DNA from: a virus
Virus record (IMG/VR): IMGVR_UViG_3300020152_000260
Span: 1 to 39,805 of that record
Reading direction: 5' to 3' (one strand)
DNA length: 39,805 nucleotides
The translations under genes were made by a program, and so were the position numbers. Within the stretch, counting starts at the first letter, position 1. Every line of letters begins with the position of its first letter. Below the pieces are notes generated by a model. The model made no database searches and was not told the DNA's origin. It saw only the letters and a program-made list of their open reading frames with translations. Shown here in pieces: positions 4,233-39,805 of this stretch.

Positions 4233-4750
4233 GCCACGATCCCGAGGATCTCGCGCCGGATCGTGTCGACGGCCTCCGCAGAGAGACCGCCTTGCCTTGC
4301 AACCGAGGCGACCTTTTCGGCGGCCGACTTCGCCTTGGCCTGAACCTCCGCCTGGTACTGCTTCTGCTTCACCGAGGCATTCGAAAGCCGAGCCACCATG
4401 ATGCCGATATCCTTGAGATTGACCTCCTTGTCTTCATCGCTCAGGTTGACCAGCACGTCGAACGCCTTTTGCTGCACCAGCCGGATCAGCGCCTCATTCA
4501 TGGCGTTGCCCTCGTCCGGCGCGGCCTCGGCGATGGCCTTGGCCTGCTCGGTCGCGACTTTTAGCGCGGAAATACGCTGCTCGAACTCCTGGCCGTACTT
4601 GTGAATGGCTGACTTGCTGATCTCGTAACCCTGATCGGCTAGCCATTCTGATAGCGCCACATAACCGGAAAACCCCGCTTCGAGCAGGCGCCGGTCGAGC
4701 TCCGCTTTAACCGGATCGGGCAACTGTAAAACGGCGGAACGTGGAGGCAT
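4229..4750 (-). CDS. Terminase small subunit-like protein (DUF3486, Mu gp27 type)
   Basis: A 173-residue protein of the DUF3486 family. The N-terminal part (residues 1-50, with SGYVALSEWLADQGYEISKS followed by AIHKYGQEFE) resembles a helix-turn-helix DNA-binding module, and the rest is helical with several stretches likely to form coiled coil. In Mu this position (gp27) is assigned to the DNA-recognition subunit of the packaging enzyme. It overlaps the large-subunit start and follows the gp26-like gene closely, which supports the assignment. Confidence 0.88.
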   Translation of the reverse strand: MPPRSAVLQLPDPVKAELDRRLLEAGFSGYVALSEWLADQGYEISKSAIHKYGQEFEQRISALKVATEQAKAIAEAAPDEGNAMNEALIRLVQQKAFDVLVNLSDEDKEVNLKDIGIMVARLSNASVKQKQYQAEVQAKAKSAAEKVASVARQGGLSAEAVDTIRREILGIVA

Positions 4751-37833: not shown

Positions 37834-37860
37834 CGGCGTTCCATCACCTAAGGAGGCTAT

Positions 37861-38226
37861 ATGGCAGAACAGACGGGCCCGAATCTCGGGCTCAAACACG
37901 GCTGGAATCTCGGCGAGAGCGGCTGGCACACCGGCATGGACGCCAACCAGGTCCGGCTGGATACGATTGTCCAACTGAGCGTCCTGGATCGGGATTTGAC
38001 TGCACCGCCCGGCAGCCCGACGGCCGGCGACCGCTACCTCGTCGGCGCGGCGGCGACGGGCGCCTGGGCCGGGAAGGACGGGCAGATCGCCCTGTACTAC
38101 AACGGCGGCTGGGCCTTCTACGTGCCGAAGAAGCACTGGCTGTGCGTGGTCGAGGACGAAGCCAAGCTGGTCCGCTGCACGCAGGTGTCGCCGTCGATCG
38201 CGTGGAGCGCGGGGATTGCGATTTAG
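37861..38226 (+). CDS. DUF2793 tail fibre-associated protein
   Basis: A 121-residue protein with AAGGAGG upstream of the ATG. The core PPGSPTAGDRYLVGAAATGA followed by GKDGQIALYYNGGWAFYVPK is the DUF2793 module, found in tail fibre and tip proteins. It is last in the late tail operon. Confidence 0.85.
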   Translation: MAEQTGPNLGLKHGWNLGESGWHTGMDANQVRLDTIVQLSVLDRDLTAPPGSPTAGDRYLVGAAATGAWAGKDGQIALYYNGGWAFYVPKKHWLCVVEDEAKLVRCTQVSPSIAWSAGIAI

Positions 38227-38432
38227 AGCATCCGCGATTTAGCCCCATACGAGGGCGGCATAAAGCCAACGTTTATTAGAAATGAGAGGAAGCGGCTTCG
38301 GCGTGCGGTAACACGCCGAGGCCGCCCAACCCACAGAGCAGTCCTGTGAGCCAAGCCGAGGCTTCCCCGCCACGTACGCGGCAGGGGTAAGCCTAGTACA
38401 AATTTTCAAACCGTGGAAAAGGCTTACAGACC
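38227..38432. ncRNA. Highly structured non-coding region before the methylase gene
   Basis: There is no convincing gene. Three hairpins follow each other: (1) arms 38292-38305 and 38312-38325, 14 pairs with one G-U, loop CGGTAA; (2) CACAG/CTGTG at 38332-38348; (3) AGGCTT...AAGCCT enclosing CCCCGCC...GGCAGGGG, about 38359-38394. This exceeds a simple terminator and may be a structured RNA leader of the methylase or an independent RNA. No family recognised. Confidence 0.5.
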
Positions 38433-39269
38433 ATGCAAAACGAGAGTTATTCAACCGGACGGAGTTTCTTATCCTGGATCGGCGGCAAGTCACTCCTGGC
38501 CGACAGGATTATCCCGCTGATCCCGGAACACCATTGCTACTGCGAGGTATTCGCCGGCGCGGCCTGGCTGCTTTTTAAGAAGCCGGAGTCGGAAGTCGAG
38601 ATCATCAACGATATCAACGTCGAGCTCGTGACGTTGTACCGCGTGGTGAAAAACCACCTCGAGGAATTCATCCGGTATCTGAAATGGATGCTCGTGGCGC
38701 GGGAGGAGTTCGCGCGGTTCAATGCGGCGAATCCGGATACATTGACCGACATCCAGCGTGCGGTCAGGTTCTATTACCTGGTGAAAACCGGATACGGCTC
38801 TCGGATCAAGAACCCGACGTTTTCGGTCGGTACGTCGAGGCCCAGCAACTTCAACCTGCTGCGGATCGAGGAGGAATTGTCGGCCGCGCATCTCAGGCTC
38901 TCGCGGGTGTACGTGGAAAATCTCCCGTACCAGCAGCTGATCGAGCGCTTCGACAAGCCGCACACGTTTTTCTATGTCGATCCGCCGTACTACGGCTGCG
39001 AGGATTACTACGGCAAGGGAATCTTCGCCCGCGAGGATTTCGCGCGGTTGCGCGAGCAGCTCTCAGGGTTACAAGGCAGGTTCTGCCTCTCGATCAACGA
39101 TACGCCCGAGATTCGGGAGATCTTTGATGGCTTTCGGATGGTGGCAGTCCCGACGCGCTACAGCGTGGCCAACGGCAAAAGCAAGGCGGTGGGCGAGCTG
39201 CTGATCACGAACTACGATCCGGTTATTCGGCAGGGGGTCGATCAGATAAAAAAGCGGCGTAAACGATAA
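38433..39269 (+). CDS. DNA adenine methylase (D12 class)
   Basis: A 278-residue N6-adenine methylase. SWIGGKS (residues 14-20) and EVFAGAAWLLF (38-48) form the SAM-binding part, and DPPY (183-186) is the catalytic motif IV. The recognition sequence cannot be read from this; GATC is usual for the family. Phage-borne methylases protect phage DNA from restriction. It lies at the right end, where Mu keeps its DNA-modification gene mom. Its codon use and spacing suggest an accessory gene. Confidence 0.9.
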   Translation: MQNESYSTGRSFLSWIGGKSLLADRIIPLIPEHHCYCEVFAGAAWLLFKKPESEVEIINDINVELVTLYRVVKNHLEEFIRYLKWMLVAREEFARFNAANPDTLTDIQRAVRFYYLVKTGYGSRIKNPTFSVGTSRPSNFNLLRIEEELSAAHLRLSRVYVENLPYQQLIERFDKPHTFFYVDPPYYGCEDYYGKGIFAREDFARLREQLSGLQGRFCLSINDTPEIREIFDGFRMVAVPTRYSVANGKSKAVGELLITNYDPVIRQGVDQIKKRRKR

Positions 39270-39389: not shown

Positions 39390-39805
39390 ATCTGGGAGTG
39401 AAGGAAATCATCGTTTGCGGCCATACCTATTGCGGGGCCATGCAGGCGCTGCTGAGCGGCCCGGAAAGCGTGGCCGACCTCCGGGCCGCTCGCGCTTGGC
39501 TCGGCCATGCCGAGGCGACCCGCCGGATCACCCGGGAAAATTACGCTCATCTGGAAGGCAATTCTCTCTTGACGGCCGCCGTGCAAGAGAATGTCTTGGT
39601 GCAATTGGAAAACCTGCGTACGCACCCCGTGGTTGCCGCAGGACTCGTCCGAGGGGCTATCAAGCTCTATGGCTGGGTTTACAAGATCGATAAGGGCGAA
39701 GTATTCGCCTATGTCCCTGAGCGTGGCCAGTTTCTCGCTCTGCCGGAGCACCCGTCCGTACCCGTCCCGTCCGCCATGCAGCTTGCCGTTACACGAATCA
39801 TCTAA
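39390..39805 (+). pseudogene. Beta-carbonic anhydrase, 3' part only, disrupted by the prophage
   Basis: The frame after the prophage end reads LGVKEIIVCGHTYCGAMQAL, the second zinc-site motif (H-x2-C) of beta-carbonic anhydrases, and continues to a normal family C-terminus. The N-terminal part with the first zinc cysteine and Asp/Arg dyad is missing, and only phage-end sequence stands upstream. It therefore cannot be active. A GTG at 39398 could start a fragment but this would be non-functional. It identifies the insertion target. Confidence 0.85.

Follow-up and report, generated by a model that had tools for sequence, protein, structure and literature searches.

Our analysis revealed that the DNA methylase gene of a Mu-like transposable phage is preceded by a conserved, structured leader RNA (type B), which we read with reasonable confidence as a bistable cis-acting element holding the translation of phage cargo off, the effect of its two states being deduced from sequence and predicted folds. 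Phage cargo genes, DNA-modifying enzymes and bacteriocins among them, share this widespread and apparently undescribed leader family, which probably keeps them untranslated until the right moment. The whole stretch of DNA that was analysed, referred to as the window, comprises the 39,805 bases of a virus record, and its PHROG matches (transposase, DNA-transposition protein, tail genes) identify a Mu-like transposable phage with the methylase at its right end, where Mu carries mom. Past the methylase, an ORF at 39398-39805 was read from the sequence as apparently host carbonic-anhydrase-like, which would fit host DNA flanking a Mu-like phage after integration. The search for Com (PF10122) gave no match in the window and was positive in B3, UMP151, TJ1 and Bise.

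All three hairpins described in the earlier note are present in the region upstream of the methylase (Table 1), namely a 14-pair stem with one G-U pair (P2; U38297-G38320), a short CACAG/CTGTG stem (P3) and a compound, bulged stem of 13 pairs (P5). The note was likewise right that a terminator U-run is lacking, as no intrinsic terminator-like site (hairpin followed by U-run) was found at 37850-38450. The element extends beyond these hairpins, reaching the ATG and including a fourth helix, P7, as well as a helix, P1, that competes with the third hairpin. The outermost two pairs of P2 overlap P1, and the 5' strand of P5 doubles as the 3' strand of P1. The segment 38284-38400 folds at -59.6 kcal/mol as compared with -41.6 +/- 3.6 in dinucleotide shuffles (z -5.1, 0 of 200 as good), and the fold reaches -70.4 when the rest of the leader is included (z -5.35, 0 of 200 shuffles).

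Table 1. Features of the methylase leader and its flanking genes, in window positions (R1, covariance model; A2 and A5, alignments; all as described in the text).
Feature	Position	Strand	Evidence
Tail-fibre-associated gene, last before leader	37861..38226	+	phrog_5363/7049
Whole conserved leader RNA, type B, up to methylase start codon (ATG 38433)	38283..38435	+	R1 119.1 bits; window is one of the 15 R1 training sequences
P1 5' strand GGAAGC; partner 38361-38366; excludes P5	38288..38293	+	covariation in A5 and A2
P2, 14-pair hairpin, hexaloop CGGTAA; arms 38292-38305/38312-38325	38292..38325	+	fold; covaries in A2
P3 hairpin CACAG/CTGTG; arms 38332-38336/38344-38348	38332..38348	+	A2 pairing
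P7 5' strand TGTGAGCC; partner is Shine-Dalgarno region 38421-38428; overlaps P3 3' strand	38345..38352	+	covariation
P5, 13-pair compound hairpin (6+4+3, bulged), palindromic tip CGTACG; arms 38359-38371/38380-38394	38359..38394	+	covariation
Shared strand GCTTCC; partner either P1 5' strand or P5 3' strand	38361..38366	+	sequence, covariation
P6, alternative hairpin: GTAAGCCT (P5 3' strand) with AGGCTTAC (Shine-Dalgarno region) once P1 frees the strand	38387..38427	+	P1-constrained fold
Shine-Dalgarno region AAAAGG and P7 3' strand	38417..38428	+	sequence
D12 class N6-adenine DNA methyltransferase (Dam-like), gene behind leader	38433..39269	+	PF02086 E 1.9e-29; PHROG 56 DNA methyltransferase E 1.4e-89

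Relatives of the leader were collected with R1, a covariance model made from 15 sequences whose structure was limited to P2, P3 and P5. Leaders of type B occur in the window, in L002, L013 and L072, and also in VP882, B3, Bise, KS9, KP12, phiHAP-1, MuM16-1, Lodos, Aval, UMP151 and Acba_23, with methylases that are only about 45-50% identical. Applied to whole phage records, R1 marked one place each in 15 out of 25, always the leader, and the gene behind it was one for DNA modification or com together with such a gene; the whole record of Mu gave no match. The held-out leaders L141, L143, L154, L156 and L157 matched R1 independently. Held-out members recognised by name include phiSHP3 (1.4e-8) and Lsp-JY19 (9e-6), with weak matches in L102, TJ1 and S1; held-out members at the same place had E-values of 1e-8 to 1e-27, and the weaker ones of 1e-5 to 0.1. 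Matches were also obtained in PAN70 (7e-27), in Komp_PAO1_1 (5e-23) and in a prophage on the plasmid pF010_1 (2e-17). A gene-blind scan of IMG/VR with a 19-base leader pattern yielded at least 80 loci, 54 of them R1 matches among the matches listed. A relative, in the form of a KP12-type leader, is present in 549 of 5426 complete genomes of E. coli and, among the matches listed, it usually touches a gene annotated as DNA adenine methylase. E. coli TW10573 (L278) has the leader without a methylase, and in E. coli JB2 (L279) an inserted sequence parts the leader from its methylase.

The type B leader family appears to have no earlier entry in Rfam 15 and no earlier description in the open-access papers covered by our search. 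No Rfam 15 family reached the gathering threshold in the window, eight relatives gave only a tRNA, and permissive thresholds returned nothing credible, the best candidate in the window being symR on the antisense strand with 24 of 61 bits. When the window leader and one leader of the second family described below (type A) were compared with phages by blastn, no matches were obtained; the relationship is visible only through the covariance model. In the open-access literature, to which the search was confined, no described leader of such kind was found.

Compensatory changes, which the earlier note had named as the evidence to be sought among relatives, were found in two alignments: A5, comprising 73 R1 matches (66 distinct, 36 of the 73 rows sharing one P5 tip), and A2, a small and diverse MAFFT alignment. 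Double-change cells in A5 numbered 45 for P1 as compared with 15.6 in shuffles, 51 for P5 as compared with 19, and 21 for P7 as compared with 5.4 (0 of 500 shuffles in each case; here and in the tests that follow, shuffle counts ignore the relatedness among sequences and are not probabilities). All six pairs of P1 covary, and each of the three helices stands above every slid register. Of these three helices, the R1 structure contains only P5, and fitting of the alignment thus did not extend to P1 and P7. In A2, none of 500 shuffles equalled P1, or P2, P3 and P5 taken together on double-change cells, and P7 was weaker than P1 (9 of 500 on double changes); P3 was paired in 84.9% of cells, with double changes in three of its five pairs. 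Across 32 clusters at 75% identity, the longest complementary runs that the strand 3' of P3 can form with the Shine-Dalgarno end summed to 210, as compared with a mean of 147 in shuffles (maximum 161). The covariation of P6 alone was not significant, and its status as an independent conserved helix is unsupported by covariation. The 3' end of the leader aligns poorly in some members, and P1 pairs badly in some, such as Acba_23 (1 of 6 pairs), Bise (2 of 6) and B3 (3 of 6).

P1 and P5 exclude each other, both needing 38361-38366, and P7 largely excludes P3, both needing 38345-38348. As local hairpins, P3 and P5 are compatible with each other, whereas simultaneous formation of P1 and P7 requires a pseudoknot. 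These mutually exclusive helices, together with the accessibility of the Shine-Dalgarno sequence in folds, lead us to propose a closed state made of P1 and P7 and an open state made of P3 and P5. According to this model, the leader would be the 5' part of the methylase mRNA; in the closed state P1 and P7 would build an H-type pseudoknot around P2 and hide the ribosome-binding site, and in the open state P3 and P5 would expose it. Conversion would permit translation of the first cistron; in the window this is the methylase, and many relatives have com in its place with diverse cargo behind it. The model presumes that the leader RNA is made and that its two states differ in translation. Potentially harmful cargo (DNA modification, bacteriocins) might in this way stay silent until late induction, and the flip might be brought about by a factor, a condition, or dimerisation of the RNA via the palindromic tip of P5.

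In nested folds at 37 C, which exclude the P1 and P7 pseudoknot, the Shine-Dalgarno sequence is unpaired with a probability of 0.18 in the free leader, 0.39 with P2, P3 and P5 enforced, and 0.06 with P1, P2 and P3 enforced; the nested-fold minimum of the window leader combines P2, P5 and P7, a mix of both proposed states. The value of 0.18 would equally suit an RNA thermometer or a passive structure that covers the Shine-Dalgarno sequence and merely sets a low translation rate, an explanation we consider rather unlikely given that P1 and P5, though exclusive, both covary, whereas a passive hairpin would need one of them.

The genes behind the leader are more varied than a regulator of the methylase would lead one to expect from the earlier note. 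A Com-like Cys4 zinc-ribbon ORF, recognised by its cysteine-spacing pattern, stands directly next to the leader in 43 of the 54 R1 loci among the matches listed, and the others in this set mainly have a D12 methylase or the contig end there. The leader is followed by com (PF10122) and then the methylase in B3, UMP151, TJ1 and Bise, by com and Mom (PF25680, E 2e-77) in PAN70, and by com and N6_N4_Mtase in pF010_1; the occurrence of Mom and N6_N4_Mtase behind the same RNA and com indicates that the regulator is not restricted to a single type of enzyme. Among the matches listed, 35 large downstream ORFs included 15 of D12, 6 of B_lectin, 3 of Colicin_M, 2 of alginate lyase, 2 of DUF642 and 1 of Mom. 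In VP882, KS9, Lodos, KP12, phiHAP-1 and others that retain the RNA, Com (PF10122) was absent in a search whose positive controls matched. Just upstream of the leader-com-methylase cassette of Pseudomonas phage Bise, a reverse transcriptase gene is annotated (L107:46-1077). The suggestion of a riboregulator is well supported, as the leader is kept directly upstream in unrelated phages with compensatory changes that include the ribosome-binding-site helix; its range of genes is wider than the methylase and takes in com, Mom, bacteriocins and others.

This diversity of cargo weighs against a ligand riboswitch, in which a small molecule (e.g., SAM, the obvious guess for a methylase) would stabilise one of the states. 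Two exclusive, covarying states beside a ribosome-binding site are what such a device would show, and type A leaders contain long invariant segments; however, the bacteriocins, lectins, alginate lyase and Mom found behind the same leader have no obvious common metabolite, SAM is unsupported, and no Rfam riboswitch matched, which makes a riboswitch unlikely in our view. Control by a protein, with Com or the encoded enzyme binding the leader either in autoregulation or in activation of the kind exerted by Com on mom mRNA, seems improbable to a similar degree. The frequency of Com-like genes next to the leader speaks for it, as does the example of Mu, where Com binds a hairpin beside the translation-inhibition structure (TIS) in mom mRNA (PMC6483171). 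Against it, the window, VP882, KS9, Lodos, KP12, phiHAP-1 and others keep the RNA without Com, and no more than 6 of the 32 sequences representing clusters contain the half-site GAGNNCC from the published SELEX motif; autoregulation by the enzyme is unlikely as the type of enzyme varies behind the same RNA. Enzyme autoregulation and a SAM riboswitch were dropped as candidates on finding the same RNA before com-Mom and com-bacteriocin operons.

Upstream of the leader no sequence is conserved across members, and at many Pseudomonas loci a GC hairpin with a T-run, resembling a terminator, lies a short distance before the leader, a context that would fit read-through from the late operon. The same context would be compatible with a processive-antitermination RNA or a trans-acting small RNA merely sitting before the gene, which we regard as quite improbable, considering that the RNA stops at the start codon and that a covarying helix pairs the Shine-Dalgarno region. 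The free phage small RNA proposed earlier likewise became less likely, as this stop at the start codon was seen in nearly every locus. A retroelement relic, also raised in the earlier note, can be practically dismissed, as the reverse transcriptase annotated upstream in Bise is the only one adjoining the leader among the phages inspected, Rfam gave no match, and compensatory changes maintain the RNA beside com or the methylase.

In most members, the tip of P5 (38373-38378 in the window) forms a perfect palindrome whose loop is self-complementary, reaching at least 8 bp in 61 of 73. The palindrome total over 32 clusters was 320, as compared with 173 in shuffles (maximum 210), an excess that is expected in part because the hairpin stem is itself an inverted repeat; the loop is the unusual part. 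The tip sequences vary and include TCGCGA, CACGTG, GTCGAC and GTAC, among others. It is possible that the tip serves RNA dimerisation or a dyad at the DNA level. A bolder version of the bistable leader, in which phages and tailocin-like loci would reuse a modular RNA lock before unrelated cargo and the concentration of mRNA would flip it through dimerisation at the P5 tip, is put forward as a long shot.

Relatives of the methylase in IMG/VR mostly have a structured leader too, usually of another sequence type than that of the window (type A, model R2). A 22-base type A piece alone was found in 38 places, 35 of them 38-105 nt upstream of a methylase relative; the other three lie before a DAM-like/GNAT fusion (L064), before a remnant (L051) and before a small ORF that contains cysteines and has N6_N4_Mtase behind it (L060). 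In bacterial genomes, 20 of 22 type A places precede a methylase or a piece thereof. In the type A alignment, P2, P3 and a long P5 are present together with P1, which acts as pseudoknot partner, and double-change cells number 38 as compared with 11.2 in shuffles; an extension of P1 competes with P5, and the P5 3' strand, as read from alignments, is complementary to the Shine-Dalgarno sequence. Both types have the order P1, P2, P3, P5, the shared strand, the Shine-Dalgarno complement and the same D12 methylases, but their sequences differ and neither model recognises members of the other type: R2 found no match at the window leader, R1 found no type A members, and R1 had no match in eight MAG genomes holding type A, a set with no positive control. 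Type A seems to be a second family with analogous anatomy and the same job, either convergent or distantly related. Two type A leaders, each with a methylase relative of its own behind it, are found on a single phage contig (L045:1832-1853 and 4655-4676). Structured-looking leaders before the methylase that fit R1 and R2 poorly (L003, L016, L146, L147, L150, L151 and L152, the last with a weak R1 score) may represent intermediates or further types.

If the type B leader acts as the proposed bistable element, it would add a widespread cis-regulatory RNA to the set known from phages, with a relative in roughly a tenth of the complete E. coli genomes, and one RNA family would bear on the open question of why Com-like genes precede so many kinds of unrelated cargo in the phages and tailocins of pseudomonads. 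According to a review, com stands before about 90% of the lectin-like bacteriocin genes found outside P. aeruginosa, where the role of Com "remains to be explored" (PMC6240691). The combination of com with bacteriocin cargo is common to that system and to ours, in which the type B RNA precedes com and then B-lectin or colicin M ORFs; in contrast, the passages of the review that were consulted describe the com gene and no structured leader. The phage-associated promoter element (PAPE) of Pseudomonas syringae lscB/lscC (PMC3899960, PMC3973379) is similarly a phage-derived com cassette before non-phage cargo. Unlike the loci described here, it keeps com without the type B RNA in pDC3000A and pHelB, as R1 had no match in the lscB leaders of either, and the published lscB transcription start is therefore no evidence for transcription of the type B RNA. 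In the lscB com leader of pDC3000A (L280:1365-1506), a hairpin and T-run resembling a terminator are found a little upstream of com.

The com-mom system of Mu differs from the type B leader in its layout, as the TIS of Mu is placed before mom at the end of com and the Mu com leader is short, whereas the type B leader occupies about 145 nt before the first gene, and Com is missing from many type B members, including the window. In other respects the two systems are alike: each concerns a DNA-modification gene that a Mu-like phage carries at its right end and whose ribosome-binding site is hidden, in our case by prediction, in RNA structure, com is a frequent neighbour of the type B leader, and Mom itself stands behind it in PAN70.
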